From positions 2,728,001-2,792,000 of the forward strand of contig NC_013943.1 of the NCBI RefSeq assembly GCF_000025725.1: a stretch of 64,000 nt of DNA, given 5' to 3'. Shown here piece after piece: positions 7,036 to 64,000 of the stretch (position 1 is its first letter; each line of letters starts with the position of its first letter). The notes beneath the pieces are model-generated. The model was not told the DNA's origin. It ran no database searches and worked only from the letters and a program-made list of their open reading frames with translations. This DNA comes from Denitrovibrio acetiphilus DSM 12809. Lineage in GTDB: Bacteria > Chrysiogenota > Deferribacteres > Deferribacterales > Geovibrionaceae. The translations under genes and the position numbers were made by a program.

Positions 7036-7701
7036 ATGAGCAGACAATATGCATTTATTGTAGACCTGAGAAAATGTGTAGGTTGTGGCGGATGCCAAGT
7101 AACCTGTAAGCAAGAGAATGAGGTTCCTTTTGTAGGGTTCAGATCTCGTGTGGAATACGTGGACGCCGGTAAATACCCTAATCCCGTAAGACACTTTGTG
7201 CCAAAGCTGTGTAACAATTGTGATGATGCCCCTTGCATCGCAGCATGCCCTACCGGAGCAACATTCAAAATGGAAAATGGTATTGTTGCTGTTAATAGAG
7301 ATACTTGTATCGGCTGTGGCAGATGTGCGGAAATGTGTCCATACGGTGCACGATATCTTAATCAAAATCTTTCGATAAAAAATGATCCAGCAAAATATCC
7401 TAATGTAGAGGAAGTGAGAGGAAAATCAAAAAGTTCTCTACACCCTGTTGATAAGTGTGATTTTTGTTACCATAGGATTGCAGCAGACATTGAAGAGCCT
7501 ACTTGCGTAAGGAACTGCCCTGCTCATGCAAGATATTTTGGGGATTTAAACGACCCTAACAGCAAAGTTTCTCAACTACTCAAAGATAACCCTACTATCA
7601 AATGGGCTGACTATTTTGGAACAAAACCACGTGTCAGCTATATCGCAAAAGATATTAAAGTCTTTGAGATGGCAGATGAACTGATAAACGAGGGGGAATA
7701 A
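7036..7701 (+). CDS. Four-cluster [4Fe-4S] electron-transfer subunit of a molybdoenzyme (PsrB/ArrB/DmsB type)
   Basis: A 221-residue ferredoxin-like protein with sixteen cysteines in the usual groups: CVGCGGCQVTC, CNNCDDAPCIAAC, CIGCGRCAEMC and CDFC with CVRNC near the C-terminus. It passes electrons between the donor and the catalytic subunit encoded 4 bp downstream. It has no signal peptide, so it is presumably carried out of the cell folded, in complex with the Tat-signal-bearing catalytic subunit. No NrfD/PsrC membrane anchor follows, unlike typical polysulfide reductase operons and more like ArrAB. The B-before-A order is also known in some arsenate reductase operons. Confidence 0.92.
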   Translation: MSRQYAFIVDLRKCVGCGGCQVTCKQENEVPFVGFRSRVEYVDAGKYPNPVRHFVPKLCNNCDDAPCIAACPTGATFKMENGIVAVNRDTCIGCGRCAEMCPYGARYLNQNLSIKNDPAKYPNVEEVRGKSKSSLHPVDKCDFCYHRIAADIEEPTCVRNCPAHARYFGDLNDPNSKVSQLLKDNPTIKWADYFGTKPRVSYIAKDIKVFEMADELINEGE

Positions 7702-7705
7702 TTAA

Positions 7706-10549
7706 ATGAAAATTAACAGAAGAAATTTCTTAAAAACATCTGCTGGACTTGTTGCAGGGGCGACTGTCACAATGAAAGCAGGAAACGTCTTTGCAAAAAT
7801 AACCAGTCAAGAGGCTGGTATCATAAAAGAATCACTCAAAGGATACAATAAAGTTTTTAGTGCATGCGCCATGTGCCCTGCTGAGTGTGGTCTTGAATAC
7901 TGGGAAAAAGGCGGTGACCTTAAAAAGATCTACGGTAACAAAGATGTTCCAATGAACGATGGAACTTCTTGTGCAAAAGCAGCGGCTATTCCTCAATTGG
8001 TTTATTCACCTTATCGTATCAAACACCCAATGATCCGTACTGGTGAGCGAGGCGAAGGAAAATTTAAAAAGGTTTCATGGGATGAAGCAATCGATTTCCT
8101 TGCAAAAAGAATGATAAAACTTAAAAAGCAATACGGCGCTGAATCTATGTTAATGGATACTGGGGATGTTACCGACAGAGACCAGTATTATCGTTTAGCC
8201 TTTGGTTTTGGGACACCTAACTGCTGCGAGCATGGAGCAATTTGCGACGTTCCAAGAAGGCATGGTCCTAAATTGATACTAGGTGGCAAGCGTATACAGC
8301 CTGACGTCATGAGACCTCTATTAATTAGAGGGGAAGATGGTAAGCTAACTAAGCCTTACGAGTATCAGACAAAGCTCATTATCTATAACGGATGGAACCC
8401 ATTCGTTGCGACACGTATCTACTACGAAAATAGAGGTACTGTAGAAGCAAAACTCAGTGGCTGCAAAGTTGTTGTGATTGATCCATCTTACTCGAATACA
8501 GCAACTGCTGCTGATGAGTGGTTAGCACCAACAGCAGGAACAGACGGCGATCTTTTTGGCGCAATGCTCAGGTATATTCTAGAAAATGACAACCCTAAAA
8601 AAGCTGACAGAAAATATATTGACTGGAATATGAAACAATATGTTTTAGGCTGGGATGAATTCATTAATGAGTTTAAATCATGGTGGAAAAAGAAAGACCC
8701 TATCAATGGTCTAACATACTTTTCTACAACTTGGGCAGCTGACAGGACTGGAATCGATGAGTATAAAATTAAAAAATTGGCTCATGATTTTGGTATTACC
8801 AAGCCAGCAGCATTAGTTTGGGGTATGCAGTCTCCTGGACACCATTATAACGGCTACTGCGCGTCTATAATTGGTACTGTACTAAATGTAATTACAGGAA
8901 ATCTCGATGTCCCTGGCGGTGCCATCGATACTGAAACTGTAAAAGCAAGTAAAGGTGCTAGCGCAACAGCTAAACATTTTAAAAAGCGGAAGCTGAAGCG
9001 CAGAGTAAATGGAAAGATCGTAGAAGGAGAAATGGAACATCTTCAGAAAGACCACTATGGAGATCAATACCCTTCTGCTTGGGATGATGTTGTCGCTGAT
9101 ATCCCTGACAGAATCAGAAAAGGCGTCAATATTGAATACGGGCCTTTCAAAGGGCATAAATATGCGTTCAAGATGTTTTTCCTTAGAACAGGAAATACTG
9201 TTATGACCGCTTCTAATACGGAAGACTGGAAAAAAGCACTGACAGAAAAGGATAAAAACGGCAATTATAAGCTTGAGCTTATGACCGTTATAGACAGTGT
9301 TTTCCTAGAAAGTGCACTGTATGCAGACATAATTTTGCCTGAAGCAAGTTTTGTGGAGCGTATGTCACTCAGCGATATATACCCTTCCCATGCAGTCCTT
9401 TATCTCAGAGATGAAGTGATCAAACCTTTGTATGATTCTAAAAAACCGACAGATATTATGAACCTGTTAGCCAAGAAACTCTATGCTCTTGGTGATAGAG
9501 ACATAAGACCTGAAGACTTTTGGGAAAGATATGCAAACGAAGAGGATTTTGTAAATGACATGCTCACACAATCTCCTAAAATGAAGAATATAGGCAGACC
9601 TCTTCCGTATCCTAAATATCCAGAAGGATATACTATAATAGGTACTCCTGATTCACTTGAAAGCGGCATTGGAGTGACTGTTGACCACAATAAGAAATTG
9701 ATCAAAGGCGACTTGTTAACAGTTGAGTGGTATCGCAAAAATCAAGGCGTTGCTGTATGGCCAATGAGCTATTATCGTTATAAAAAATCAGATTCTGAGA
9801 AACCAAACTTAGCATATCCTAAGACAGATAGTAAAATGATTGAGTTTGTATGGGATTATGAAAAAGATGGCAAAAGATCTGGTAGGTACGCAGGCTACAA
9901 CAAGCTTATTGAAGCATCACAAGTTGTACCAGCAGGTATGCAAGAGATTGGCTTTACCAAGTATCCAAAAACTTTCTACTGGTTCGAGACCAAGTGGAAT
10001 CCGTATACCAATCCAGATTACAGCAAATACCAGAAGGAATATCCATTCCAAGTTATCAACGGCAGGGTACACCATGCGATGACTGGGACTCAAATGGCTA
10101 CTTTCCTTTCACAGGTCAAAGTGGAGGGAACTTGGCACCCTATGAACGAAGAATTTAAGGATGTTAATGTCGAAGGTGTTCAATCTCCGAAACCTGGTCA
10201 AATAGTGAAAGAACATACTTTTAAAAAAGACACTTTTTCTATCGGAACCATCTGGATGAATGAAACAGATGGTAAGGATATGGGTTTTAAAATGGGCGAT
10301 TTGGTCAAGATGACAAACCCTTTAGGAGCCTCCACTAAAGGAAAGTTATTTTTGTCCGGCGGTATTAGACCAAAAGTGGTCAAAATATCATTTGGAACAG
10401 GGGGGAGATTTAGCAAAGGTATAGGACCTCTGTACAAAGCTAGAAACTACACTGCTGATCCGAATATGCTCACTGATCCAAATGCTAGAAGCCCATTTAT
10501 GGGATTCCCAGCATTTGCGGATATGATAGTGAAGATCGAAAAGGTGTAA
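7706..10549 (+). CDS. Tat-exported molybdopterin oxidoreductase catalytic subunit (Phs/Psr/Srr/Arr clade)
   Basis: The 947-residue protein begins with a Tat signal (NRRNFLK, hydrophobic stretch, NVFAK). A [4Fe-4S] site follows with Cys54, Cys57, Cys61 and Cys89 (CAMCPAEC and TSCAKAA). The probable Mo ligand is Cys180 in EHGAICDVPRRHG, a cysteine as in the Phs/Psr/Arr group and not the Ser or Asp of TorA or nitrate-type enzymes. The C-terminal molybdopterin dinucleotide-binding domain is present (FQVINGRVHHAMTGTQM). It should reduce an oxyanion or sulfur compound in the periplasm, but the substrate (arsenate, selenate/selenite, polysulfide, antimonate) cannot be read from sequence alone. The PhnD-like sensor hints at an oxyanion. 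Both ends are intact and an ATG lies behind GAGGGGG. Confidence 0.9.
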   Translation: MKINRRNFLKTSAGLVAGATVTMKAGNVFAKITSQEAGIIKESLKGYNKVFSACAMCPAECGLEYWEKGGDLKKIYGNKDVPMNDGTSCAKAAAIPQLVYSPYRIKHPMIRTGERGEGKFKKVSWDEAIDFLAKRMIKLKKQYGAESMLMDTGDVTDRDQYYRLAFGFGTPNCCEHGAICDVPRRHGPKLILGGKRIQPDVMRPLLIRGEDGKLTKPYEYQTKLIIYNGWNPFVATRIYYENRGTVEAKLSGCKVVVIDPSYSNTATAADEWLAPTAGTDGDLFGAMLRYILENDNPKKADRKYIDWNMKQYVLGWDEFINEFKSWWKKKDPINGLTYFSTTWAADRTGIDEYKIKKLAHDFGITKPAALVWGMQSPGHHYNGYCASIIGTVLNVITGNLDVPGGAIDTETVKASKGASATAKHFKKRKLKRRVNGKIVEGEMEHLQKDHYGDQYPSAWDDVVADIPDRIRKGVNIEYGPFKGHKYAFKMFFLRTGNTVMTASNTEDWKKALTEKDKNGNYKLELMTVIDSVFLESALYADIILPEASFVERMSLSDIYPSHAVLYLRDEVIKPLYDSKKPTDIMNLLAKKLYALGDRDIRPEDFWERYANEEDFVNDMLTQSPKMKNIGRPLPYPKYPEGYTIIGTPDSLESGIGVTVDHNKKLIKGDLLTVEWYRKNQGVAVWPMSYYRYKKSDSEKPNLAYPKTDSKMIEFVWDYEKDGKRSGRYAGYNKLIEASQVVPAGMQEIGFTKYPKTFYWFETKWNPYTNPDYSKYQKEYPFQVINGRVHHAMTGTQMATFLSQVKVEGTWHPMNEEFKDVNVEGVQSPKPGQIVKEHTFKKDTFSIGTIWMNETDGKDMGFKMGDLVKMTNPLGASTKGKLFLSGGIRPKVVKISFGTGGRFSKGIGPLYKARNYTADPNMLTDPNARSPFMGFPAFADMIVKIEKV

Positions 10550-10615
10550 TATCAAATAAATGGGGTAGCCATAACAGCTACCCCATTTAAACATGTAACT
10601 TCAAAGGTGTAATAT
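10540..10615 (+). repeat. 13-bp direct repeat enclosing a strong hairpin between the catalytic and chaperone genes
   Basis: AAAGGTGTAATAT occurs at the catalytic-gene stop (10540-10552) and again at the chaperone ribosome-binding site and start (10603-10615). Between them ATGGGGTAGC and GCTACCCCAT form a 10-bp hairpin (about 10559-10587). It looks as if a 63-bp hairpin unit was inserted with a duplication between genes that were once coupled. The hairpin has only a short T stretch after it and may dampen rather than end transcription. Confidence 0.6.
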
Positions 10616-11144
10616 GAATAGCGTACGAAAGAACATACATTTTGATTTAATTATCAATGTATTAAAGGATGTCCCCAGTAAAGAATTCCTAATTAATATT
10701 GTTCAAAGTCAAGCAGACAATCTAAGTAGTGCTGATGATAAATTAGTAAATGAAATCGCTGACGAGATAAATTGTTTAGGTGTAGATGACGCAGCAGAGA
10801 AATATAACGAAGAATATCTTAAATTATTTTCTCAACCTTCGCAGTTTTCTACAATTCCTGTTGCATCCTATTATCTGGACGAGAAGAAGCTCTTATATTC
10901 GGATATTTCTCTGAGATTAAGAGACCTATATGCAGACTTTTTATTTCAAGTGTTGCCCCCTTATACAGAAGACCACATTGTCCCTTTATTGGTTTTTATG
11001 AACGAAATTGATAAGAGTAAGAAAGATCAATTTATGGATGATTACATCTATAGCTGGGTTCCTGAATTTTTGGAGCAGGTGATAGAAGCTACTAATTATA
11101 AATATTTTTCTAACTCAGCAAAAATAATTAAGAATATAATATAA
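10614..11144 (+). CDS. TorD-like molybdoenzyme chaperone
   Basis: A 176-residue all-helical cytoplasmic protein with the TorD/DmsD family pattern: an N-terminal helical half, then QPSQFSTIPVASYYLDEKKLLYSDISLRLRDLYADF, and later PPYTEDHIVPLLVFMNEI, close to the E-P-x-D-H-I region of the family. It probably binds the Tat signal of the 947-residue subunit and holds it until the cofactor is inserted. A hairpin separates it from the catalytic gene, which fits a chaperone needed in lower amounts. Last gene of the sigma-54 operon. Confidence 0.82.
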   Translation: MNSVRKNIHFDLIINVLKDVPSKEFLINIVQSQADNLSSADDKLVNEIADEINCLGVDDAAEKYNEEYLKLFSQPSQFSTIPVASYYLDEKKLLYSDISLRLRDLYADFLFQVLPPYTEDHIVPLLVFMNEIDKSKKDQFMDDYIYSWVPEFLEQVIEATNYKYFSNSAKIIKNII

Positions 11145-49823: not shown

Positions 49824-50507
49824 ATGAAGATATTATTAGTCGAGGATGACATAGACCTCGTCGGAAACATTATAGATTACCTCGAGATTCACAACTGTCA
49901 TGTTGATCATTCCGAAACAGGGGAAAAAGCTCTTGAGATGCTTCATAAAAATGACTACGACGCTATGGTTCTCGACATAAATCTGCCCGGTATTGATGGG
50001 TTTGAGGTATGCAGAAGGGTCAGAACAGAAATGTACCTGAAAATGCCGATAGTCATGCTTACAGCGAGAATTATGCTTGTTGATAAGCTGGAGGGGTTTA
50101 AATCCGGCACAGACGATTTCCTGCCGAAACCATTTGACCTTTCAGAACTTAAAATGAGACTTTTTGCTCTTCACAGAAGAGTACATCAGGGGATGGCAAT
50201 TCAGTTCTGTGTTGATGACCTTTATGTAGATCCGGAAAACGGCACTGTCATAAGAGACGGTGACCACATAAAGCTACCCCCGATATGCTTCACAATACTT
50301 CTGAAGCTTATGGAAAGTTACCCGGGCATAGTCACAAAAGAAGAGCTTGAAGCAGCGATATGGGCAAATCACCCCCCCATGACAGATGCGCTGAAAGTTC
50401 ATTTTTTTACACTGAGACAAAAGGTTGATAAACCGTACGATAAACAATTATTATATAATATAAGAGGCAGAGGATACACAATCTCCACAAAGGGCAATAT
50501 AATTTGA
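49824..50507 (+). CDS. OmpR/PhoB-family response regulator
   Basis: 227 residues. Receiver domain with VEDD at the start, Asp51 in MVLDINLPG and the Lys in LPKPFDLSE; the winged-helix DNA-binding half has PPICFTILLKLMESYPGIVTKEELE and YNIRGRGYTI. GAAGG precedes the ATG. It overlaps the kinase gene by 4 bp and probably controls the TorA-type operon behind it, in the role TorR has in enterobacteria. Confidence 0.93.
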   Translation: MKILLVEDDIDLVGNIIDYLEIHNCHVDHSETGEKALEMLHKNDYDAMVLDINLPGIDGFEVCRRVRTEMYLKMPIVMLTARIMLVDKLEGFKSGTDDFLPKPFDLSELKMRLFALHRRVHQGMAIQFCVDDLYVDPENGTVIRDGDHIKLPPICFTILLKLMESYPGIVTKEELEAAIWANHPPMTDALKVHFFTLRQKVDKPYDKQLLYNIRGRGYTISTKGNII

Positions 50508-51877
50508 ATTGGAACCTAAAGCTACGCAACAAGATTATTCTCGCATTTATTGGATATAGTATTTTACTAAGCAGCCTTACTATTCTCGGCGTTATACTCG
50601 CAACCCAGATAAGCGAGACAAGAAGCTACCGAAACAGAGCTAAAATTGAGGCTGAATATTATCTCAGTGACTACATATCGAGCTTTAATGCCCCATCATC
50701 CAATTCATTTAACTCTACAAAACCTCCATCACCTTTTATCACAACATACTTCGGTAATGAACTGCTCCCAAAATGGGTTCCGGAAAAGGTTCCGGCACTT
50801 AAAGAGGGGACATATTTTGTCGATCATTATCAGCAGAAATACTGCCTTCTGATAAGACGTCTGCCGGATGGAGAAAATTTCTATCTGCTTTATAACATTT
50901 CAAGACAGGGAAAATATTCAGCATCGCTTCACTCGCTCCAACGTTCAATTCTGCTGACACTGCTCCCCATCATGATCCTTGCCCTTATACTGGGGCTTGT
51001 GACTGCACATAAGGTTATTGGTCCAATACTTAAACTGGACTCATTTATCAGAAACAGACCTGAAAACGAAAGACTCCCTGAGTATTTTGACAAAAATATA
51101 CATGCTGATGAAATCGGGTTTCTTGCAAAAACACTTACAAAATCCATTAACAATATGCACGACTCCATAGAGCGTGAAAACTCGTTTGCAAGAGATGCGT
51201 CCCACGAACTGCGCACTCCTGTCACTACAATGAAAAATTCCCTTGAACTCCTGGACGAATTAAACCCTGAAATGGACAAGAATGTTGAAAAAATAATAGG
51301 TCGGATATCCCGTGCTACATCTAATATGGAACACCTGATAAAATCCTTTCTCTGGCTTTCCAGAAGAAAAAATCTGGACGACTTTGACTCTGTGGAAGTA
51401 CCCATTAAAGAACTGGTACACGAAGTTATTTCAGAACAGAGCTACATCCTTGAAAAGCGGGATGTCGTGATAACTGTTTTCGATGAAGGGAGCGAGAATA
51501 TCACCGCTGAACCACAACTTACTAAGATTTTGATTGCAAACCTTGTAAGAAATGCCTTTACTTATACTAACAGCGGTTATGTCAAAATACATATAAACAA
51601 AAGTTGTTTTCAGATTCACGACTCCGGCAGAGGTATCAAACCGGAGGTATTGAAAATGATGAATAAAGACCTGAAGGCTTTTCCGGCCGACGGGTTTGGT
51701 TTGGGGATATCCATAGTAAAAAGGCTATGTAACAGTTTGGGGTGGAGCTTCTATATCTTTTCCGAAGAAGGCAAAGGGACAGTGGCTCGCATCTGTTACA
51801 ATACAGCCGATGATTGCGCAAATTGTGCAGGGTTCAGCCTGCAAAGCAACAGGGTAGCAAGGGTGGAAAATGTTTAA
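50504..51877 (+). CDS. Sensor histidine kinase paired with the OmpR-type regulator
   Basis: 457 residues from a TTG that overlaps the regulator stop. Two membrane spans (about 10-33 and 148-170) enclose a roughly 115-residue periplasmic sensor. HAMP and the H box with His234 (RDASHELRTPVTTMKNSLELL) follow; the ATPase shows LVRNAFTYTNSG, IHDSGRGIKPE and GFGLGISIVK. It is a simple kinase, unlike the multi-domain TorS, and there is no TorT-like binding protein. Overlaps the reductase start by 8 bp, so sensing and reduction are encoded as one coupled unit. Confidence 0.92.
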   Translation: MNWNLKLRNKIILAFIGYSILLSSLTILGVILATQISETRSYRNRAKIEAEYYLSDYISSFNAPSSNSFNSTKPPSPFITTYFGNELLPKWVPEKVPALKEGTYFVDHYQQKYCLLIRRLPDGENFYLLYNISRQGKYSASLHSLQRSILLTLLPIMILALILGLVTAHKVIGPILKLDSFIRNRPENERLPEYFDKNIHADEIGFLAKTLTKSINNMHDSIERENSFARDASHELRTPVTTMKNSLELLDELNPEMDKNVEKIIGRISRATSNMEHLIKSFLWLSRRKNLDDFDSVEVPIKELVHEVISEQSYILEKRDVVITVFDEGSENITAEPQLTKILIANLVRNAFTYTNSGYVKIHINKSCFQIHDSGRGIKPEVLKMMNKDLKAFPADGFGLGISIVKRLCNSLGWSFYIFSEEGKGTVARICYNTADDCANCAGFSLQSNRVARVENV

Positions 51878-54248
51878 AGGAATCAGCAGAAGAGATTTAC
51901 TGAAATTAATGGCTACTGCAACTGTATATGCCGGAAGCGGCGCTGCTGTTGCATCCGCCGCAGAGGAAGAAGAGCTCATCACACACGCAACGCACTTCGG
52001 ACCTCTTGAAGCATATGTCAAAGGGGGCAAATTTTATAAGCTGCGTCCTCATCCTATGGTGGGAAAGACCACTGAGATGCTGGACAGCCTTGTGGAATAT
52101 GTAAATACTCCAAACAGAATAAAAAACCCCTGCGTCCGGAAAAGCTTCCTAGAGGGGCGAAATGAACCTCATAGGCGCGGTGCAGAAGAGTTTGTTGACG
52201 TAAGCTGGGAAACAGCACTGGATCTGGTTGCTGCTAAACTTGAAGATGCAAAGCGTTTCGGCGGCAGTGAATCAATCTTCCGGTCATCTTTTGCCGGATG
52301 GGCGACATCCGGAACAATCAACAGACCAAACATCCTGCAAGGGCGCTTCCTTGGACTTTTCGGCGGCTTCACAGACACTGTAGGAGACTACTCAGCAGGT
52401 GCAGCCAGACAAATTATCCCTCATATTATGGGTGGTCTGGAAATCTACTCCAGAAAAACAGCGTATGAGGTTATCCGGTCTAACACTAAAACAATAGTTC
52501 TCTGGGGGATGGATCCGCTCAAAAACTTCAGGATAGACTACGGCGTATATGACCACAAAAAGACAGACTGGTATTATGACCTGAAACATGCAGGTATAAA
52601 TTTCGTCTGCATTGACCCGGTATACAACGACACAGCCAGAGAACTCGGCGCAGAATGGACACCTATCAGACCGTCCACTGACACCGCAATGATTCTCGGC
52701 ATATGCGGTTATCTTTACAAAACAGGCAAATACAGTAAAAAATTCATAAATAAATACACCGTCGGCTTTGATATGTTCAAAGACTACATCACGGGAAAAA
52801 CAGACGGTATAGAAAAAACTCCCGAATGGGCAGAGAGGATATGCGGGGTCAGTGCGTCAAAAATAGTCTCACTGACTGAGCTGATGCTGAAGGATGACAC
52901 ACTAATAAGCACTCTTTACGGCGCACAGAGACACGAATACGGCGAGCAGTTCCACTGGTGTCTTGTTGTTATGGCATGTATGCTGGGACACATCGGCACA
53001 CCCGGCGGCGGCATACACCTTGGTGCCGGCTGGCTGGCATCCTCCGGTGAAAAAATGCCGAGACGGCTTTCACAGGGGCGCAATCCGGCAAGAGCCGTAA
53101 TTCCTGCATCAAGACTCGGGGAAATGCTTCTGAATCCGGGGCGTACAATAGATTTTAACGGCAGCAAGCTCACTTACCCAAATATAAATCTCATATACTG
53201 TTCAGGCGCAAACGCCCTGTCGCACCATCAGGATACGAATCAGCTTCTTCGCGGCATCAGACGCATCGACACCATGATCACCCACGAAATATACTGGAAT
53301 CCGTGGGCGAAAATATCTGACATCGTTCTGCTGGCAACGACAACTTTTGAAAAGAATGACATAGGCCTCAGTTACGAATACAATATCAGATACATATGGG
53401 CGATGAAACAGGTAGTCAAACCTCTACATAATGCTAAAAGTGATTACTGGATATACTCTCAGCTTGCCAAAAAACTTGGCTTTGAAGAAGAATTCACTCA
53501 GGGGCGCTCAAACATGGACTGGGTCAGATGGAGCTACGAATCTGCAAAACTCGACACCCCTTTCGAAGAATTCTGGGAAAAGGGCTTTCTGAAATTCGAC
53601 AAGCCCGAGAAAGACAAAGAGTTCGTATACTTGCAGGACTACATTGAAAATCCGAAAAATAATCCACTGTTCACCCCTTCAGGTAAAATAGAAATATACT
53701 CAGAAAAGGTGGCAAGCTTCGGGTACAAAGACTGTAAAGGGCACCCTGTATGGTTTGAACCTAAAGAATGGCTTGGCTCAACAAGAGCACAGAAAAATAA
53801 ATTCCATCTGCTGTCTATACACTCAAAACACAGGCTGCACTCACAACTGGATAACCTGCCCATCAAAGACCTATATAAGGTTAACGGCAGAGAACCTGTT
53901 ACCCTGAATCCACGTGATGCAGAAGAACTGGGTGTTAAAGAAGGCGACAACGTCGAAATATTTAACCTGCGGGGAGCGATCATCTGCGGAGTTGTTATCA
54001 GCGAAAATATTATGCCTAAAGTCGCAAGAGTTGACGAAGGCGCATGGTATGCACCGGAAAATCCCGGAGAAATAGGCACCAGATGCCTCAACGGAAATGC
54101 AAATGTGCTTACTTCATCGCGTCCGACTTCAAAACTTGCTCAGGCATGTGCAGCGCACAGCTGCCTTGTCTCTATCAGAAAACTTGACGGAGAGGTAAAA
54201 AGCAACACCGCTTATGACAATCCGAAAATTATTACTAGCAAACTGTGA
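51870..54248 (+). CDS. torA: TMAO/sulfoxide reductase catalytic subunit (TorA/DorA/BisC type)
   Basis: 792 residues. Tat signal (SRRDLLKLM, hydrophobic core, AASA). No N-terminal Fe-S cysteines, as in the TorA/DMSO reductase group. The Mo ligand is Ser175 in TVGDYSAGAAR, the serine form. Further family marks: TIVLWGMDPLKNFRIDYG, CIDPVYNDTA, and the dinucleotide-binding domain LLSIHSKHRLHSQLDNLP. It reduces TMAO or related N- and S-oxides in the periplasm. Its gene overlaps the kinase; a TorC-like gene follows. A TorA-type function is well supported; the preferred substrate is not. Confidence 0.93.
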   Translation: MFKGISRRDLLKLMATATVYAGSGAAVASAAEEEELITHATHFGPLEAYVKGGKFYKLRPHPMVGKTTEMLDSLVEYVNTPNRIKNPCVRKSFLEGRNEPHRRGAEEFVDVSWETALDLVAAKLEDAKRFGGSESIFRSSFAGWATSGTINRPNILQGRFLGLFGGFTDTVGDYSAGAARQIIPHIMGGLEIYSRKTAYEVIRSNTKTIVLWGMDPLKNFRIDYGVYDHKKTDWYYDLKHAGINFVCIDPVYNDTARELGAEWTPIRPSTDTAMILGICGYLYKTGKYSKKFINKYTVGFDMFKDYITGKTDGIEKTPEWAERICGVSASKIVSLTELMLKDDTLISTLYGAQRHEYGEQFHWCLVVMACMLGHIGTPGGGIHLGAGWLASSGEKMPRRLSQGRNPARAVIPASRLGEMLLNPGRTIDFNGSKLTYPNINLIYCSGANALSHHQDTNQLLRGIRRIDTMITHEIYWNPWAKISDIVLLATTTFEKNDIGLSYEYNIRYIWAMKQVVKPLHNAKSDYWIYSQLAKKLGFEEEFTQGRSNMDWVRWSYESAKLDTPFEEFWEKGFLKFDKPEKDKEFVYLQDYIENPKNNPLFTPSGKIEIYSEKVASFGYKDCKGHPVWFEPKEWLGSTRAQKNKFHLLSIHSKHRLHSQLDNLPIKDLYKVNGREPVTLNPRDAEELGVKEGDNVEIFNLRGAIICGVVISENIMPKVARVDEGAWYAPENPGEIGTRCLNGNANVLTSSRPTSKLAQACAAHSCLVSIRKLDGEVKSNTAYDNPKIITSKL

Positions 54249-54308: not shown

Positions 54309-54842
54309 TTGAAATTTATCATTTTTATTGGGATATTTTTATCAACTATACTCATTGCCTGCTCAATCTGGTCCAGCAGCGGTTACCTCAGACGTGATTT
54401 TGAAATCAGAGACGAAAAGGGTGACGTTTCTGCAGTTATTCTGCTGGGAGCATATGTCAAAGACGGAAAAGTCACCGCATGGACAGACTGCTCAACCGGT
54501 GAAATATTCCGCACTTCGGAAAGAGACCTTGAATACGGATACCTGTACAACTCTCATATTGCAAAATATACCGGAACAGAAGAAAACGGACTGAAAGAAG
54601 TAACAATAGCAGTCTCTGCAGGAAAAAACGAACTCGCCCCCACAATGTATGAAACTATTGCAGAAATTGAAAACTCATATTACGAACACTGCAGCTCCTG
54701 CCATGCAGCGCCAATCATAAAACATTACCCGAAAATCCAGTGGCACGGCATAATGGACTCAATGATACATCACGCCAGCATGGAAGATAAAGAATCGGAG
54801 GATATAAAAAGATATATCTTCATATCTTTACAAAAACAATAA
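54309..54842 (+). CDS. Stand-alone TorC C-terminal-like monohaem cytochrome c (lipoprotein)
   Basis: 177 residues from a TTG with GGAG upstream. The signal is of lipoprotein type (STILIAC). One haem site CSSCH (Cys128) is followed by KIQWHGIMDSMIHHASMEDKESEDIKRYI, like the end of TorC, whose C-terminal monohaem domain passes electrons to TorA. The four-haem NapC/NirT half of TorC is missing here, so the domain stands alone and needs another electron donor. It directly follows torA. Confidence 0.75.
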   Translation: MKFIIFIGIFLSTILIACSIWSSSGYLRRDFEIRDEKGDVSAVILLGAYVKDGKVTAWTDCSTGEIFRTSERDLEYGYLYNSHIAKYTGTEENGLKEVTIAVSAGKNELAPTMYETIAEIENSYYEHCSSCHAAPIIKHYPKIQWHGIMDSMIHHASMEDKESEDIKRYIFISLQKQ

Positions 54843-55031: not shown

Positions 55032-56474
55032 ATGCAACACATCTATAAGATTTTTATTATGTCATTTCTTCTGTGCTCCATACTGACTTTTCCGGCCTTC
55101 AGTTTTAATAATGACAGCTATACTACGCCTGACAGCTGGGCACAACATGTTACAACAGGAAAAATAGTAAAAAGTACAGAGGGAACCTGGCTTACTGAAG
55201 ATACAAGTCTTTACACAACACTCACTACCCGTTTGCGCTTAAAATCTAATGAATATGCAGAGGATAGTGATGTTTATCAGTACATTCGTATGCATACAGA
55301 CCCGGTTAAACTCGGCGACGGAATAGTTAAGTTTTCTGCATACGGGCGTATAGCAACAGATATTAACGGTAACCCGGATAAAGACTGGACGAGCAGTTAC
55401 TACTACAATCAGCAGGACATTCTCGATGCGGAACTTGACAAAAACGATCCGGCAGGACGTCTTTATCAGGCATACGCACAGTTCGACGGTGTTATCAGGA
55501 ATACTAAACTTAATGCCGGCAGATTCTATCTGGAACACCTGAACACTTTTCAGGTTGACGGCGGTGATTTGACGGTCAATGCGGGAAAAAATTTCAAAGT
55601 TTACGCCTTCGGTGGTCTACCTGTCAGCTATTACTACGACTTTGACAACGCAAGTGTCTACGGAGTCGGAGCACAGGGTGCTTTTGCTGAAAACACAAGA
55701 ATTCAGGCAGAGTACACAGCGATGGACATCGACGATATTGATGATGACTATACACAGATCAGACTCATTCAGGCTATACCAAACGGCAGTGTTATGCTTG
55801 GTTTCTCTACTCTCAATGACGCAGCCACTTACAGCGCTGACATTGACTATCAGATACCGGCAACAAACACAATAATCACGCTGGGCTACGAAAAGCTTAA
55901 TGACAATATCGAAGGCAGCGACAAAACATACCTTGTAAACCCAATAACATACGCCCTGATGGATCAGAGCAAATACAGCCGGTACAAAGCTTCTGTATAT
56001 CAGGCATTCCTTGACTATTTCGTTGCAGGCGTCAGTTATGAGACGAAATCTGTTGACGGGGACGAGGACTTCGATAACCGTGATTTCCGTAAGTACGGAT
56101 TCAAATTTGATATAAACGGGCTCCCGACTGAAAAAACATATATTTCAATATCAGCGGATAAATGGGATATAGACGAAACAAGTACAACAGACGACAATAA
56201 CCGCTTTCAGTATGGTCTCCAGATAAGTCAGGGGATCACAGAACAGATAAGTATGTGGGCAGGAACATCCTTCAGCCGTTATGAATATGATTACCTCACA
56301 GACACAAGAAAAGATTCTGTAAGATCGTATTATGTAGGTGCAGAATATCAGCCCAATGAAATGTTTGCAGTCATGGCGGACATCACTCGTGAAGAAACAG
56401 ACTTTTACGATGATATAGACAGTGACCTAAGCAAAAGCTATACAGTTGAGCTCTGGGCAAACGTCTCATTCTGA
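55032..56474 (+). CDS. Outer-membrane beta-barrel protein
   Basis: 480 residues with a signal peptide (FIMSFLLCSILTFPAFS) and long alternating amphipathic strands; the last residue is Phe (WANVSF), the normal barrel C-terminus. Aspartate-rich turns and aromatic girdles are frequent. I recognise no specific porin family. It lies 14 bp before a hexahaem cytochrome gene. Barrel-plus-multihaem pairs can carry electrons across the outer membrane, as MtrAB or DmsEF do, but no MtrB-type CxxC signature is seen. GGAGG precedes the ATG. Confidence 0.8.
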   Translation: MQHIYKIFIMSFLLCSILTFPAFSFNNDSYTTPDSWAQHVTTGKIVKSTEGTWLTEDTSLYTTLTTRLRLKSNEYAEDSDVYQYIRMHTDPVKLGDGIVKFSAYGRIATDINGNPDKDWTSSYYYNQQDILDAELDKNDPAGRLYQAYAQFDGVIRNTKLNAGRFYLEHLNTFQVDGGDLTVNAGKNFKVYAFGGLPVSYYYDFDNASVYGVGAQGAFAENTRIQAEYTAMDIDDIDDDYTQIRLIQAIPNGSVMLGFSTLNDAATYSADIDYQIPATNTIITLGYEKLNDNIEGSDKTYLVNPITYALMDQSKYSRYKASVYQAFLDYFVAGVSYETKSVDGDEDFDNRDFRKYGFKFDINGLPTEKTYISISADKWDIDETSTTDDNNRFQYGLQISQGITEQISMWAGTSFSRYEYDYLTDTRKDSVRSYYVGAEYQPNEMFAVMADITREETDFYDDIDSDLSKSYTVELWANVSF

Positions 56475-56488
56475 CATAGGGAGATAAA

Positions 56489-56941
56489 ATGAAACATATA
56501 ATACTCGTTGCGATGCTGGTGCTTACAACATCCGGAATAGCCATTGCTGTCAGCTCAGACAAGCCGGCAAGCCACGACACTTCATGGATACAGCGCCACG
56601 GCAACGCAAGCAGGGTTGCGAATCAAGAATGCCTTGAATGCCATGTTGAACAGGTTTCCTGCATTCAATGCCATCAGGACACACAACCCCGCAGCCATAC
56701 ATCAGGCTGGGTTAAAAAGGGGCACGGTCTTGAGGCAAGATGGGACAGGTCAAGCTGCCAGACATGCCACAGAGAAGACTCCTGTATCCAGTGCCATCAG
56801 GAAACACCTCCGGCAAACCACAGACCGGGCTGGCAGGAACCTATTAACAGACATTGCAACAGCTGTCACTATCCCGTTCAGGAGACAACCTGTTTCACAT
56901 GTCATAAAACGGCTCATGCACCTAACGAATACGCTAAGTAG
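56489..56941 (+). CDS. Periplasmic hexahaem cytochrome c
   Basis: 150 residues with a signal peptide ending near SGIAIA. Six CxxCH sites: CLECH, CIQCH, CQTCH, CIQCH, CNSCH and CFTCH. Repeats HRPGW and HTSGW with nearby histidines serve as probable haem ligands. The pattern resembles small multihaem cytochromes encoded with respiratory reductases. It sits between an outer-membrane barrel and the remains of a Tat protein gene. Function: electron carrier in the periplasm; partners uncertain. Confidence 0.9.
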   Translation: MKHIILVAMLVLTTSGIAIAVSSDKPASHDTSWIQRHGNASRVANQECLECHVEQVSCIQCHQDTQPRSHTSGWVKKGHGLEARWDRSSCQTCHREDSCIQCHQETPPANHRPGWQEPINRHCNSCHYPVQETTCFTCHKTAHAPNEYAK

Positions 56942-56958
56942 ACAGGAGCTAAAACATA

Positions 56959-57305
56959 ATGAGTCTGGAAAGATAATTAGATAAATAAAATTGATGTGAC
57001 ACGCCAAAGCTTCCTTAAAGGAGTAAGTACAGCCGGCACATCGGCATCTATTTACGGCTGTGGCAAAAGCTGTCGTCAGTCGTTATTATGTTCAGGATGT
57101 TGTTGTAGAAGGATAGTAGTCTGCATGTATGCAGAACTATCCATAAAGAAAACTGGAATATGTTACAGCAGATGAAATTGCAGCAAAATACCAAAATGTT
57201 GTAAAAACAGTTGTAGGAATACCTGATTCTAAGCTAGATTCAAATGGAAACACAATTGACTCTGGCGGTACTGTTTCATCTATATATTTTAAGGCTAAAA
57301 GCTAA
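56959..57305 (+). pseudogene. Decayed Tat-exported protein, probably a lost molybdoenzyme subunit
   Basis: An intact ribosome site (CAGGAGC, 56942-56948) precedes ATG 56959, but stops follow at once. From 56996 the sequence reads VTRQSFLKGVSTAGTSASIYGCG, a worn Tat signal ending in a lipobox-like C, shifting frame near 57070 (RYYVQDVVVEG). The 3' part (57147-57305) is one open frame ending KLDSNGNTIDSGGTVSS and then KAKS, with no start. I infer a gene whose middle was deleted. The neighbours, a hexahaem cytochrome before and a radical SAM and TorD-like chaperone after, would fit a molybdoenzyme. Confidence 0.55.
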
Positions 57306-57361
57306 TTTAAAGCATAACGGGGTCACCTAAGGCTCCGTTATGCAATACAAAAGGCGGCGGT

Positions 57362-58678
57362 ATGATATTTGATTTAACTAAAGATGGTTTGAACAAAGTA
57401 CACAGCGAAATGCTGAAAGAAGAAGCACTGATCCACCTGAATGCATATGAGAAATTTATGCAGCAGGTTCAGGAATCAGGCATGATGATCGACGACAATA
57501 CAGAAGCACCTGTCTTCGCATACAAAGACAAGCTTCAGCACCTTCCGGGTGTATCAGTGGGCAACTCAGGTCACAGCCTTTATTACGGCGAAATATCCCC
57601 CGCTTGTCTGCACTGCAGGACAGGCGAACGCTCCATGACAGTTTTCCATACACTTAAATGCAACAGAAGCTGCTACTTCTGTGCTAATATGAATCAGGCA
57701 AACTATAACTATTTCGTAAAGAACATCAATAATGCTCTTGAAGAGATAATCAACGCTGACGACGGCAACGGATTCAACTCCATTGCTCTTACAGGCGGTG
57801 AACCGCTTCTGCTTCCGGAAATGACTCTGGACTTTTTTAAAGCATGCAGAAAGAGGTACCCCGCAGCACACCTCAGACTATACACAAACGGCGACTTTCT
57901 GCCGGAAGATTTAGCTAAATCCCTTGCTGAAGCGGGTCTTGATGAAGTGCGAATAAGCATTAAAGCCGACGAGAACGGTTATCCTGAAGGGACACTCGGC
58001 TGTATCGAAACAGCAGCCAGACATATCCCCGCAACTATGGTAGAAATGCCGGTCATCCCGGGCACTATTGAAGTAATGAAAGAGCTTTTATTGCAGCTTG
58101 ACAAAATCGGCTGTACCGGGATAAATGTCCTTGAGTTCCTCTACCCATGGATCAATAATACGAACTACAGTAAAAAAGGTTTTAAAGTCAAAAAAAGACC
58201 TTACAGAGTATTGTATTCATACGAATATGCAGGCGGACTCCCCGTCAGCGGCAGCGCAGAAGAATGTGTTGAGCTGGTAAGATTTGCGTCCGAAAAAGAA
58301 CTTAAGCTGGATGTTCATTTCTGCAGTCTGGAAAATAAGCTGACTTCTCAGATTTTTCATCATAATATGGGGATACCTCTCATGCCCTATGAGTATAAAT
58401 CAGAGAAAGACCACTTTATAAAAAGTATACGGGCATACGGCAGTAATGCAACTAAAGCACTGAAATATTTTAAAAAACACGGCATAGAAGACTATCATTC
58501 CGAAGCTCACGGGCTTAAGATTGACTTCCACCCGAAATACGTAAGCAGAATCCGCGGGCTTTCAGAGCTCGCTCTTACATACAATATTGCAGAAGAAAAA
58601 GACGGTCAGACGATCATCAGAGAAATCAAAATAGACCTCGTCGACCCTGAACAATTTGACTATGAAAATGACATATGA
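57362..58678 (+). CDS. Radical SAM protein linked to a molybdoenzyme locus
   Basis: 438 residues. The [4Fe-4S]-SAM motif is C-x3-C-x2-C (Cys100, Cys104, Cys107 in LKCNRSCYFCAN), and SAM-binding follows in LTGGEPLLLPEM. The N-terminal CLHCRTGERSM adds a further cysteine pair that may hold another cluster. It is not MoaA (no C-terminal GG or second Cys triad of that type). The neighbour is a TorD-like chaperone gene 8 bp later. Role unknown: possibly maturation of the reductase whose remnant precedes it. Confidence 0.8.
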   Translation: MIFDLTKDGLNKVHSEMLKEEALIHLNAYEKFMQQVQESGMMIDDNTEAPVFAYKDKLQHLPGVSVGNSGHSLYYGEISPACLHCRTGERSMTVFHTLKCNRSCYFCANMNQANYNYFVKNINNALEEIINADDGNGFNSIALTGGEPLLLPEMTLDFFKACRKRYPAAHLRLYTNGDFLPEDLAKSLAEAGLDEVRISIKADENGYPEGTLGCIETAARHIPATMVEMPVIPGTIEVMKELLLQLDKIGCTGINVLEFLYPWINNTNYSKKGFKVKKRPYRVLYSYEYAGGLPVSGSAEECVELVRFASEKELKLDVHFCSLENKLTSQIFHHNMGIPLMPYEYKSEKDHFIKSIRAYGSNATKALKYFKKHGIEDYHSEAHGLKIDFHPKYVSRIRGLSELALTYNIAEEKDGQTIIREIKIDLVDPEQFDYENDI

Positions 58679-58686
58679 GGTGACAC

Positions 58687-59376
58687 ATGGAAGTAAGTGA
58701 AATAGTAAGCGTCCTTAAAGGGAGAAGTGTTGCATACAACGTTTTCTCTAAGGCTTTTAAAGATGTACCAGATGAAGAAACAGATACTCTTTTTAAAGAA
58801 ACAGCAGAATACATGTTTCAGATGGCAGACTCCAGCAACAATGAGAATTTCAAAAAAGGTGCAGAAATGCTCAAAGAATTTCTCGCTACTGACAACTACT
58901 CTGAAGCAGATATGGCTCCCACAAGAATGGATAGAAGCCGTGACTATACAAGGCTATTTATCATAGGCAAATTCTCAGTACCTATTTATGAATCTGTCTA
59001 CACCTCTCCGCAGCAGCTAACAAAGCAGGACGCATGGGCAGAAGTTAAACGTCTTTACATAAAAAACTTCTACAAGCTTGCAGAAGGCGATAAGACAATG
59101 GAAGACCACCTTGCGCTGGAACTTCAGTTCATGGGGCTTCTTTCAAACAAAACGACGTCCTTCATAGAAGATAACGTGTTTGACGAAGCAGAGACAACTC
59201 TTCAGACTCAAATGGATTTTCTTGAAAAGCACCTCCTCGTCTGGGCTCCGGAATTATGCGACAAAGTGACAGAGCTCAATTCTGCACTCCACACAGGCTT
59301 TTATCCGGCATATGCATATATGCTGAAAGGATTTCTGGAAGAAGATGCAGCAATTGTCAAAGAACTGCTTGACTAA
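58687..59376 (+). CDS. TorD-like chaperone without an intact partner nearby
   Basis: 229 residues, helical, with the TorD/DmsD layout (YTRLFIIGKFSVPIYESVYTSPQQLT in the middle, HLALELQFMGLLSN, FLEKHLLVWAPELCDKV near the end). GAGGTG precedes the ATG; it lies 8 bp after the radical SAM gene. The gene just upstream that it should serve is a remnant, so it may now serve TorA (51870-54248) or be a leftover. All the expected domains are present, so decay has not reached it. Confidence 0.82.
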   Translation: MEVSEIVSVLKGRSVAYNVFSKAFKDVPDEETDTLFKETAEYMFQMADSSNNENFKKGAEMLKEFLATDNYSEADMAPTRMDRSRDYTRLFIIGKFSVPIYESVYTSPQQLTKQDAWAEVKRLYIKNFYKLAEGDKTMEDHLALELQFMGLLSNKTTSFIEDNVFDEAETTLQTQMDFLEKHLLVWAPELCDKVTELNSALHTGFYPAYAYMLKGFLEEDAAIVKELLD

Positions 59377-60790: not shown

Positions 60791-62017
60791 TTATTTACCG
60801 GAACCAATCGCAAAGGTATATTTAACATACACTCGGAAATCGTTGAAATCTTCGCCTTCGTCAAAATCCACCATTGCATATCTGACACGGACAGATACTC
60901 CGTCAAGGGCTCCGGAGAAACTGTACTGGATGTTAAAGTCAGTTTCATTTATGTCACTGGAAGCATTTGAGCCCGATTCAGGCGTATCATAAATTGCATG
61001 AAAGACATAGGCACTGAGCCCCTTAAGCCCAAGTTTACCAAAGTCATAATTAACTTTAAGAGCGTACGCATTCTCTTCCGCACGTCCGGATGCCATAATC
61101 TGCTGAATCAGAACTTTTCCATCCCCCCATGGGACAAAGAGATCATCATCACCAGTATATGCATAATAGCCTGTTACAGAAAAACCAAAGGCATCAACAC
61201 CTGCATTAAAACCGTATTGATCAGTATCAAAGTCACCGCCGACATCGTCACCGACAGACTTCTGTATAAGATAAGATGGTGTAATATGAAGTGCGTAATC
61301 GTTAAATGTTTTTCCGATTGTTCCTTTCAGATAGGTGGAATTAAATACGTCGTCCATATGGTACTGCCACGCTTCAGCTTTCAGATTGACAGCTTCCACA
61401 GGGAATTTATACTGTGCTCCAAAGCTTAAGAGAGGGTTATCATCTCCGCCTGAACCAACGGAATCCATGATAGGCATATACTCATCATCAGACCATCCCA
61501 TAAAACCTGTGATATAGTAACCAGACAAAGTCAGGTTTTCAACAGACCTGTTCACTATGGAAAGACCTTTATAAGTTTTAGGCATGAGCCGGATATCGTG
61601 TGGGTTCATAAAGGGTGTTCCGATCTTCTGAGCACCGTATTTAATAGTTGTATTGTACCATTCACCCTGAATATAGTATTCCTGCATACGGGTAAAACTT
61701 TCGTGATCACCGTCATCACCTCTCTGAAGGAGACCGTAAACAGCTTTATCGTCGTCGCTTGCTAAATCATTACCCGATGCAAACGTCAAACCAGCACTTA
61801 CACCATAAAGCGGGTCAGTATGATAAAAAAGCATGGTGCCCACAGCCATATCCTCACGATCCTGTGTGTCACCGTCAAAATCTCTGGTAAAGTAATAAGT
61901 ACGTATTTCACCCTTTAGTGAACCTTTAGAAAAAGCCTCTTTAAGATTTGTTGCTCCTGATGCAGAAGAGCTCATCAGAAACATTGAAGACATTATTAGA
62001 AGAATTAAAACTCTCAT
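60791..62017 (-). CDS. OprD-like outer-membrane porin
   Basis: 408 residues with a signal peptide (MRVLILLIMSSMFLMSSSASG). The N-terminal region EAFSKGSLKGEIRTYYFTRDF is typical of OprD-type barrels of anaerobes, followed by about 16 amphipathic strands and an aromatic end (YTFAIGSGK). OprD porins take up small organic anions or amino acids. It lies 59 bp after the flavoprotein gene, with GGGAGG before the start, which links uptake through the outer membrane with the periplasmic reduction. Confidence 0.83.
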   Translation of the reverse strand: MRVLILLIMSSMFLMSSSASGATNLKEAFSKGSLKGEIRTYYFTRDFDGDTQDREDMAVGTMLFYHTDPLYGVSAGLTFASGNDLASDDDKAVYGLLQRGDDGDHESFTRMQEYYIQGEWYNTTIKYGAQKIGTPFMNPHDIRLMPKTYKGLSIVNRSVENLTLSGYYITGFMGWSDDEYMPIMDSVGSGGDDNPLLSFGAQYKFPVEAVNLKAEAWQYHMDDVFNSTYLKGTIGKTFNDYALHITPSYLIQKSVGDDVGGDFDTDQYGFNAGVDAFGFSVTGYYAYTGDDDLFVPWGDGKVLIQQIMASGRAEENAYALKVNYDFGKLGLKGLSAYVFHAIYDTPESGSNASSDINETDFNIQYSFSGALDGVSVRVRYAMVDFDEGEDFNDFRVYVKYTFAIGSGK

Positions 62018-62038
62018 CTTTCCTCCCGGAATATGATA

Positions 62039-62064
62039 CCGCCCGGCATTTTTCAGCCGGACGG
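62039..62064 (-). repeat. Hairpin between flavoprotein and porin genes
   Basis: CCGCCCGGC (62039-62047) pairs with GCCGGACGG (62056-62064), one mismatch, 8-nt loop. On the minus strand it follows the flavoprotein stop by 12 bp; like the one at 60688 it may set relative message levels within the operon. Confidence 0.45.
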
Positions 62065-62076
62065 CTTATTTTGAGT

Positions 62077-63603
62077 TTATTTTAAAATATACTTAACTGC
62101 GCTTTCTGCTGCTATGCGTCCGGAGTTGATAGCAAAACCAAATGTACCGCCTCCAAGCTTGAGGTCGTAACTGTCCCCATACATACCGCCTGCATCGAGA
62201 CCGCCGGAGTAAAGCCCCGGTATTGTTTCCCCATCTGCGTCCACAACTTCTGTATGCTCGTTGATTCTAATACCACCAAGAGTACCCAAAGCTCTCGGAT
62301 GCAGCTTTGTCACATAAAACGGTGCCTTTTCTATTTTTCTGAGATATTTTGCATCTTTATGGAAAAGATCATCTTTGTGCTTCTCAGCAGCGACATTGTT
62401 TGCTTCAACAGTTGCTTTCAATACAGCAGGATCAGCCCCAATAGCTTTTGCAACCTCTTCAATTGTGTCGCATTTATACACATTGCCATTATTCTTTTTA
62501 AGCTCTTTGTTAAAATCTTTTTCAAGATTGTCAAGCTTTGTACCGTGAATAACCCATTCACCGAGAGGCATCTGTATTCCTTCGTTGATGACCATCTGTT
62601 TTGTATTTTCATCATAAATAGAGTAAGCTGTGCCGCCTATTCTCTCCAGAGCATTACCAGACTGAGGCCACTCTGTGATGTTTGACTCATCAGTATATCT
62701 ATGACCGTTGGGGTCTACAAAAAGATACGGCTGTACAGCAGCAGCAATGAGATGTGACGCAGGGTGAAAACCCTTAAGACCAGGACGGTAAGACTGCATA
62801 ACATCAACGCCTTCTTCATCGGCGCCTGCTTTCCATGCCATTTGTATACCATCACCTGTTTTGCCTATGTGACCGATGAAAATCATGTCAGGATATCTGG
62901 AATATTTCGCGACCATCTCTCTATTGTTAGCAAAACCACCTGTAGCAACAAGAACCGCTTTTGCATTAATGCGTATCTTCTCACCTGACTTATCCTGACC
63001 TATAACACCTGCAATCTTTCCATCTTTTTTGATGAGGTCAACACCTGGTGTTTCAAGAAGCAGTGTCCCGCCCAGCTCCTGAAAGCGTTTAGTCAGTGCC
63101 ATCATTACAGCTTTCCCGTGGTGATAGTGTTTCCCATCCTGCTCATAGTCACCGATAACGTGCCATGTGAGAGGACCGCCGAAACCACCCACACCAATAT
63201 ACTCATACTGAATGCCAAACTGCTTAAGCCATTCAATTGTTTCGGCTGATTTATTGACAAAAGCACTCACCAGCGGGCCATTTGCACGCCAGTGGCTGTA
63301 GTCCATGATTGTTTTGAATGCAAATTCTTTTGATACATCTATACCCTGCCTAAGCTGAAGGCTGCTTTCAGCAGCGAAAATACCCTCTGCAAAGTTCCCT
63401 GTACCTCCTGTTATGGGCTGCTTCTCAAGGATGATAACATCAGCCCCAAGCATTTTTGCCTGTACCCCTGCTGCAAGACCTGTTGTCCCGCCGCCGACGA
63501 TAGCAAAATCTGTGTTGTAAACTTTCTCTGCAAATGCTGGAAAAGCAGAAAAAACTGCAAGAATGATAAAAACAAAAAACTTGTTCGATGATAAGGATCT
63601 CAT
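62077..63603 (-). CDS. Periplasmic FAD-dependent reductase (flavocytochrome c flavoprotein family)
   Basis: 508 residues from ATG 63603, chosen for its AGAGG 7 bp upstream and because a signal peptide then follows directly (FFVFIILAVFSAFPAFAEK). The FAD motif is DFAIVGGGTTGLAAGVQA; the substrate half has GDYEQDGKHYHHGKAVM; the end is GLDAGGMYGDSYDLKLGGGTFGFAINSGRIA. True fumarate reductases have Arg in a H-x-x-N-R-L-G-G motif there; this protein reads YDLKLGGG, so fumarate is doubtful. It probably takes electrons from the tetrahaem cytochrome encoded upstream. Confidence 0.82.
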   Translation of the reverse strand: MRSLSSNKFFVFIILAVFSAFPAFAEKVYNTDFAIVGGGTTGLAAGVQAKMLGADVIILEKQPITGGTGNFAEGIFAAESSLQLRQGIDVSKEFAFKTIMDYSHWRANGPLVSAFVNKSAETIEWLKQFGIQYEYIGVGGFGGPLTWHVIGDYEQDGKHYHHGKAVMMALTKRFQELGGTLLLETPGVDLIKKDGKIAGVIGQDKSGEKIRINAKAVLVATGGFANNREMVAKYSRYPDMIFIGHIGKTGDGIQMAWKAGADEEGVDVMQSYRPGLKGFHPASHLIAAAVQPYLFVDPNGHRYTDESNITEWPQSGNALERIGGTAYSIYDENTKQMVINEGIQMPLGEWVIHGTKLDNLEKDFNKELKKNNGNVYKCDTIEEVAKAIGADPAVLKATVEANNVAAEKHKDDLFHKDAKYLRKIEKAPFYVTKLHPRALGTLGGIRINEHTEVVDADGETIPGLYSGGLDAGGMYGDSYDLKLGGGTFGFAINSGRIAAESAVKYILK

Positions 63604-63678
63604 TGAATACCTCTCATAATTTTTGACGCATGCACGCCTTTTTATAGACAGCATAACTGCCTAAATATGTTTTTGACG

Positions 63679-64000
63679 TTACTTAACGACCATGTCAAAG
63701 TTGTGACACTCCTCATTACAGAAAAGATGCGACTCTTTATGGATACCGTGACATGAACCGCAATCAAGTTCTCCCATGTGTGAATCGTGAGGATTTGCCT
63801 CTTCAACATCTGCTGTAGCCTCAGCAAGCTCCTGATATGAACCATGACACTCAAGGCAGGCAGGCATTTTTGCAGACTCAGACGGAGAATCTGTCCCGTG
63901 GCAGTCTGCACACTGAACATCAGCGTCTTTATGGGCTCCCCTCAGCTCGCCACCGGCAATTACTGCTCCTGCATAAAGAACTATCAGAATAAATAAAAAC
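63679..64000 (-). CDS. Periplasmic tetrahaem cytochrome c, start beyond the window
   Basis: The frame is open from base 64000, so the first residues are missing; what is seen starts with the hydrophobic signal part (FLFILIVLYAGAVIAGG). Haem sites: CADCH, CLECH, CGSCH and CNEECH, the last with three residues between the cysteines instead of two. This layout matches the small tetrahaem domain of flavocytochrome c, here a separate protein encoded before the flavoprotein. It probably brings electrons from a membrane quinol oxidase to it. Confidence 0.82.
   Translation of the reverse strand, partial: FLFILIVLYAGAVIAGGELRGAHKDADVQCADCHGTDSPSESAKMPACLECHGSYQELAEATADVEEANPHDSHMGELDCGSCHGIHKESHLFCNEECHNFDMVVK

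Follow-up and report, generated by a model that had tools for sequence, protein, structure and literature searches.

Two described systems come closest to the locus analysed here. In Shewanella oneidensis, DmsEFABGH is an extracellular dimethyl sulfoxide (DMSO) and iodate reductase fed across the outer membrane (PMC11302344), and the ExtABCD and ExtEFG conduits of Geobacter combine a barrel, a periplasmic multihaem cytochrome, and an outer lipoprotein (PMC6148476). The locus in question occupies positions 55032-59376 of the window, the 64,000-nucleotide stretch of Denitrovibrio acetiphilus DSM 12809 that was analysed (positions 2728001-2792000 of contig C1 of genome G000, a single contig of 3,222,077 bases). 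Genes for a beta-barrel, a hexahaem cytochrome, a remnant of a protein with a twin-arginine translocation (Tat) signal, a radical S-adenosylmethionine (SAM) protein, and a TorD-like chaperone follow each other there in a single direction, all five where the initial annotation had placed them. It is reasonably probable, taking the reading set out below as a whole, that the locus is a decayed copy of a respiratory cassette of Deferribacterota.

Like the Shewanella operon, the intact cassettes hold a barrel, a multihaem cytochrome, DmsA, DmsB, and a TorD-like chaperone. The differences are a hexahaem cytochrome of 150 amino acids (aa), without a match to the decahaem DmsE model (TIGR03508) or to any other NCBIfam model, in place of a decahaem protein, and a barrel of 480 aa without an MtrB/PioB-family (DmsF-type) match in Pfam or NCBIfam; searches of Pfam, NCBIfam, and PDB with the barrel and the cytochrome gave no informative match. 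In addition, the cassettes carry radical SAM and 4Fe-4S proteins and have a multi-copy organisation of constant and variable parts. The likeness to DmsEFAB proposed in the initial annotation therefore holds at the level of predicted function but not of membership. By cluster layout, homologues of the window barrel and cytochrome in other phyla are arranged like the Ext conduits, whereas here a molybdoenzyme pair takes the place of a cytochrome as the terminal partner, and the conduit cytochrome is about half as long. The enzyme resembles the Escherichia coli DmsA/YnfE family, as the best NCBIfam model for the relatives' proteins is TIGR02166 (DMSO/selenate reductase A; 504.5, 489.9, 368.9, and 317.2 bits). 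However, all these scores lie below the cut-off of 777.7 bits, and the proteins are approximately 150 residues longer, bear a lipoprotein signal, and have no gene for a DmsC-type membrane anchor in the cassette. No description of the system itself was found in the open-access literature searched.

The catalytic subunit with its Tat signal and the four-cluster DmsB, present in relatives and in an intact four-cassette array of the same genome, are represented in the window by remnants only. DmsA leaders of relatives matched 56969-57064 by tblastn with 50-64% protein identity (E ~1e-9, computed against this small region only), and 56959-57064 corresponds to the start of DmsA, with 68% nucleotide identity to the genome's own intact dmsA genes (E 8e-9). 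The decayed Tat protein is thus genuine. Alignment of 56996-57305 with the Tat signal and C-terminus of the missing enzyme, as the initial annotation had suggested, identified the Tat end as DmsA but not the 3' end as that of the catalytic subunit; the latter assignment was rejected for 57153-57305, which matches the end of DmsB (70.6%, 153 nucleotides, E 1e-21). Because an intact DmsA-DmsB pair takes up ~3.5 kb in array copy 4 and the remnant 347 bases, the shortfall is about 3.2 kb. An internal deletion removed DmsAB from the window copy; this bears out the proposed loss of the enzyme gene in substance, although both subunits are affected.

The gap between the hexahaem and radical SAM genes is filled in relatives (e.g., L042, L043, L045, L046, L050, and L058) by a DmsA-like molybdoenzyme of ~950-1020 aa and a DmsB-like four-cluster ferredoxin subunit of ~205 aa, giving the intact order barrel-hexahaem-DmsA-DmsB-radical SAM-TorD. 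Loci with the barrel, cytochrome, and radical SAM genes together and never a molybdoenzyme between them were not seen in relatives. Profile searches detected six barrel-hexahaem pairs in the D. acetiphilus genome. Four make up a tandem array of barrel-hexahaem-DmsA-DmsB cassettes (193-216 kb; L150 and L151; G000:C1:186000-222000), in which the flanks are nearly identical and the DmsA bodies diverge, so the intact system that had been predicted exists both in relatives and in this genome. The array is headed by paralogues of the window response regulator (70%) and kinase (62%) and followed by TorD and a 4Fe-4S protein; no radical SAM gene was found in this locus. Since these four intact cassettes without a radical SAM gene sit elsewhere in the genome, the chaperone described as orphan is so locally but not genome-wide. 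The sixth pair, at 682 kb, stands with a DmsA of divergent sequence and a B12-binding radical SAM protein; farther on, a 410-aa paralogue of the window radical SAM protein is encoded. In this region (L152 and L039; G000:C1:676000-702000) the B12-binding radical SAM protein has 780 aa and is followed by a protein of 587 aa whose B12-binding match is weak; a 292-aa C-terminal fragment of a molybdoenzyme and a second set of radical SAM, TorD, and ferredoxin genes are also present. Draft contigs of G004, G005, G007, and G008 stop within barrel or hexahaem genes, as would be expected if the assembler had merged several copies that are almost identical.

Comparison of the array copies separated constant from variable parts. 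Barrels and hexahaem proteins are each 99-100% identical and DmsB 91-100%, against 54-64% for DmsA. At the DNA level, the copies are 87-100% identical from the start of the barrel gene into the first ~170 bases of DmsA; the value drops to mostly 40-75% within the DmsA body and returns to ~80-100% from its stop codon through DmsB. The same contrast was observed in G006, where five cassettes, several of them far apart, share hexahaem proteins at 99-100% and, in the four comparable cases, barrels at 98-99%, with DmsA at 27-69%. In three Mucispirillum-type genomes the barrel and hexahaem proteins are 97-100% identical, divergent extra pairs excepted, while DmsA is mostly 29-50%, DmsB 40-63%, and TorD 24-46% (one G037 pair with DmsA at 100% is an assignment artefact from a truncated locus). 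In trees, barrels from the same genome or from close genomes cluster together, and DmsA bodies sort by type, irrespective of genome. The pattern is explained by putative flank-homogenising recombination (concerted evolution). Recent simple duplication as the source of the identical barrels was rejected because DmsA types are common to several genera.

The radical SAM protein belongs to a family without a name. Residues C100, C104, and C107 (CxxxCxxC), together with C82, C85, and C321, are invariant in its 24 aligned members, and the window protein reached no NCBIfam cut-off (MoaA, TIGR04317, TIGR04311, and HxsC included), the best score being 50.1 bits against 267.9. Its AlphaFold2 (AF2) model has a mean predicted local distance difference test (pLDDT) of 89.4, and the nearest solved folds, those of NifB, LipA, and viperin, are generic, with query TM-scores below 0.4. 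Among 46 genomes of the order, 23 encode both the radical SAM protein and the barrel, 2 only the former, 5 only the latter, and 16 neither (p 2.4e-6, a statistic that ignores relatedness). The protein is also found beside molybdoenzymes without any barrel (L056, L057, L072, and Eggerthellaceae), and it therefore belongs to the enzyme side; the idea of a radical SAM partner for an outer-membrane reductase system has to be revised in this respect. In Gram-positive gut bacteria (Eggerthellaceae and other Coriobacteriia; L079-L093), the family adjoins Tat molybdoenzymes with iron-sulphur subunits, and L079 has an NrfD subunit as well. The Mucispirillum locus of the family contains a kinase and a 4Fe-4S protein and no molybdoenzyme, and on two Nitrospirae contigs no partner of this kind lies near the gene. 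Maturation of DmsA-type enzymes, often in trans, would fit most loci. The window gene was probably kept because the four-cassette array has none.

Alternatively, the TorA/BisC-type enzyme encoded upstream in the window, and not the DmsA enzymes of the array, could be the client of the remaining TorD-like chaperone and perhaps of the radical SAM protein, an explanation that we rate somewhat below an even chance. It accords with the single TorD gene per cluster where TorA and DmsA coexist (L072, L163, L188, and L190) and with the separate TorD of the array. However, most loci of the radical SAM gene contain DmsA but lack TorA, and the L188 and L190 loci, in which TorA occurs with a cassette, lie on different contigs from the radical SAM matches of those genomes, so that TorA need not be linked to the radical SAM protein.

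With respect to the conduit, the outer-membrane barrel gene adjoins a multihaem cytochrome gene, as in porin-cytochrome conduits. Outside the phylum, barrel homologues were detected in nine of 385 genomes sampled (E 1e-9 to 1e-29). At the eight loci examined they adjoin cytochromes with 11-14 haems, with whose C-terminal half the hexahaem protein aligns, and most of these loci have further multihaem proteins close by, one of which matches MtrC/MtrF-type domains (L212). In some Mucispirillum pairs (L159 and L180), a small haem protein with a lipoprotein-like signal replaces DmsA on the 3' side. Because of these homologous pairs with multihaem neighbours and the small haem proteins in the place of DmsA, the barrel-hexahaem pair is read as a shortened porin-cytochrome conduit, not demonstrably homologous to Shewanella DmsEF. 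Most DmsA leaders adjacent to a barrel contain a lipobox ([LVI]xGC), that is, a Tat-lipoprotein signal, and the enzymes of L056 and L057, where no barrel occurs, have an ordinary Tat signal and no lipobox. DmsA is probably anchored in the outer membrane, to which one feature, the lipobox, points, and it probably faces outward at the cell surface.

An entirely periplasmic system appears unlikely. The barrel would then be a specific porin through which substrate enters and product leaves, the hexahaem protein a periplasmic electron carrier, and DmsAB a lipoprotein attached either to the inward side of the outer membrane or at the inner membrane. The small size of the cytochrome, the lack of an MtrB-type match in the barrel, and the low confidence of the barrel model are compatible with this arrangement, as is the ordinary Tat signal of TorA in the same cluster, which is probably periplasmic. 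However, the barrel and cytochrome genes lie side by side and are homogenised together, their homologues pair near other multihaem proteins, and the Mucispirillum pairs mentioned above have a small haem lipoprotein where DmsA would stand. Equally doubtful is the idea that 55032-59376 is wholly dead or dying, its barrel, cytochrome, and radical SAM genes being intact only through the recency of the deletion: the enzyme genes are indeed lost, and the ferredoxin gene found after TorD in relatives is absent, but the remnant has decayed to ~70% identity with stops and frameshifts while its neighbours retain full frames and the invariant residues of their families.

The favoured reading, held with fair confidence, is a decayed cassette of a putative outer-membrane conduit with a predicted outward-facing DmsA and putative maturation in trans. 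Gene layout, deletion, homology, the constant-variable pattern, and the lipobox are observed; the outward position, the path of the electrons, maturation in trans, and the choice of substrate are deduced. The barrel and the hexahaem cytochrome would carry electrons over the outer membrane, first to DmsB and from there to DmsA; this molybdenum enzyme, on a Tat-lipoprotein anchor, would reduce a soluble acceptor, with TorD and the radical SAM protein acting on the enzyme in the cytoplasm before export. In such a modular cassette, recombination would keep the barrel, cytochrome, DmsA leader, and (in Deferribacteraceae) DmsB identical among copies, and the ancient and diverse DmsA body would set the substrate.

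Several observations weigh against this reading. D. acetiphilus is reported to grow only with nitrate (PMC3035293), and TorD was possibly kept for the neighbouring TorA. Genomes of genus g15 (G033, G035, G039, and G041) have cassettes without a radical SAM gene of the window type. Two barrel-linked DmsA leaders (the 682-kb copy and L163) fall outside the lipobox pattern searched, and in L072 a lipobox is present with no barrel nearby. The AF2 model of the barrel, built from three sequences, is all-beta but poor (mean pLDDT 46.8) and gives no usable lumen width; six haems could be too few to cross the membrane.

The features of the locus and its surroundings are given in Table 1. The extent proposed in the initial annotation is right as to its features but not in its upstream limit, as the two-component system, the TorA/BisC-type enzyme, and the monohaem TorC-like protein are part of the same conserved cluster. 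Relatives show variants of this layout: L042 has the order kinase, TorA (a 63% homologue in the equivalent position), monohaem protein, barrel, cytochrome, DmsA, radical SAM, TorD, and L072, a Thermodesulfobacteriota contig, the order response regulator, kinase, DmsA, DmsB, radical SAM, TorD, ferredoxin, TorA. The ferredoxin, a 4Fe-4S protein of ~330 aa, is encoded 3' of TorD in relatives and absent from the window locus. Elsewhere in the window, a further molybdoenzyme cluster at 7036-11144 encodes a four-cluster ferredoxin subunit, a 947-aa Tat enzyme, and a small TorD-like protein. Genes for an OprD-family porin, a VprA-like periplasmic flavin reductase (below cut-off), and a small multihaem protein at 60791-63920 on the minus strand probably form another acceptor-specific respiratory set.

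Table 1. Coordinates of the window features (positions 1-64,000) and loci with guanine tracts in dmsA
Feature	Location	Strand	Remarks
OmpR type response regulator	49824..50507	+	70% identical paralogue ahead of the four-cassette array; 54% homologue heads the L072 cluster
Sensor histidine kinase	50504..51877	+	62% paralogue ahead of the array; 40% in L072
TorA/BisC-type molybdoenzyme, intact, 792 aa, ordinary Tat signal	51870..54248	+	TIGR00509, 873 bits (cut-off 1017)
Monohaem protein like the C-terminal part of TorC	54309..54842	+	TIGR02162, E 2e-10, positions 296-376 of 387
Putative conduit outer-membrane beta-barrel, 480 aa	55032..56474	+	Homologues adjoin hexahaem or 11-14-haem cytochromes; AF2 all-beta, low confidence
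Putative conduit hexahaem c-type cytochrome, 150 aa	56489..56941	+	Six CxxCH; aligns to C-terminal half of 11-14-haem cytochromes
DmsA remnant: start codon, Tat signal, lipobox (codons 1-35), early stop	56959..57064	+	tblastn and nucleotide comparison
Weak DmsA remnant, codons ~67-88, other frame	57058..57123	+	68.7% nucleotide identity, E 0.008; colinear, weak alone
DmsB remnant: last 51 codons, stop codon kept	57153..57305	+	70.6% nucleotide identity over 153 nucleotides to array copy 4, E 1e-21
Radical SAM protein, intact, unnamed family, 438 aa	57362..58678	+	PF04055, E 2.7e-19; invariant CxxxCxxC
TorD-like chaperone, 229 aa	58687..59376	+	PF02613, E 1.6e-23
DmsA G8-G10 tract loci	L156, L157, L158, L160, L162, L171-L174, L176-L178, L189		Mucispirillum-type genomes

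Poly-G tracts are a feature of phase-variable surface genes in Campylobacter and Neisseria. In Mucispirillum-type genomes, a tract of G8-G10 closes the constant leader of DmsA, at its junction with the body. Among 13 copies with such a tract, the body, which stays open over more than 1000 codons, is joined in frame in 4 and out of frame in the other 9, although homopolymer assembly errors are possible for single copies. The complete genome G023 contains ~45 distinct runs of at least nine G, against fewer than one expected under a dinucleotide model. These tracts have the signature expected of phase variation, which is likely here and would involve reversible switching within a population. As in the Campylobacter and Neisseria genes, the tract would switch the frame between leader and body; unlike there, the switched product is a respiratory enzyme. 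Selenocysteine as the reason for the split DmsA frames was rejected, because the parts lie in different frames around the tract. No poly-G tract was seen at the dmsA genes of D. acetiphilus. G9 tracts also occur within barrel genes of Mucispirillum (L159 at 8467, L180 at 10096, L184 at 7056, L185 at 7278, and L186 at 2211). In Seleniivibrio-type genomes, a G7 tract covers the part of the radical SAM gene that encodes the TGGEP motif (L040 at 9385, L041 at 895, L042 at 8803, and L048 at 983); in L048 the run has eight G (G8) and the gene falls into two frames (a metagenome-assembled genome, in which an error is possible). No description of phase variation in Mucispirillum was found in the open-access literature searched, and within those papers neither the organisation into constant and variable parts nor the poly-G switch appears to have been described. 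The few Mucispirillum schaedleri genes that are raised during gut inflammation include those of an uncharacterised DMSO-reductase-like system (PMC5285517); a link to these cassettes could not be made.

Taken together, and put forward tentatively, Deferribacterota may practise a combinatorial surface respiration in which a homogenised conduit is combined with interchangeable molybdenum reductases, served in trans by an undescribed radical SAM maturase, with poly-G switching of each reductase in Mucispirillum. The unnamed radical SAM family of Deferribacterota and gut Eggerthellaceae would thereby gain a testable class of partners. Respiratory enzymes are usually regarded as stable housekeeping equipment. 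Instead, the cassettes would resemble variable surface antigens in their organisation: export and electron delivery would fall to constant parts and catalysis to variable ones, and a genus from the mouse gut adds what seems to be a frame-shifting switch. If this is true, a Mucispirillum population would place bets on differing electron acceptors.

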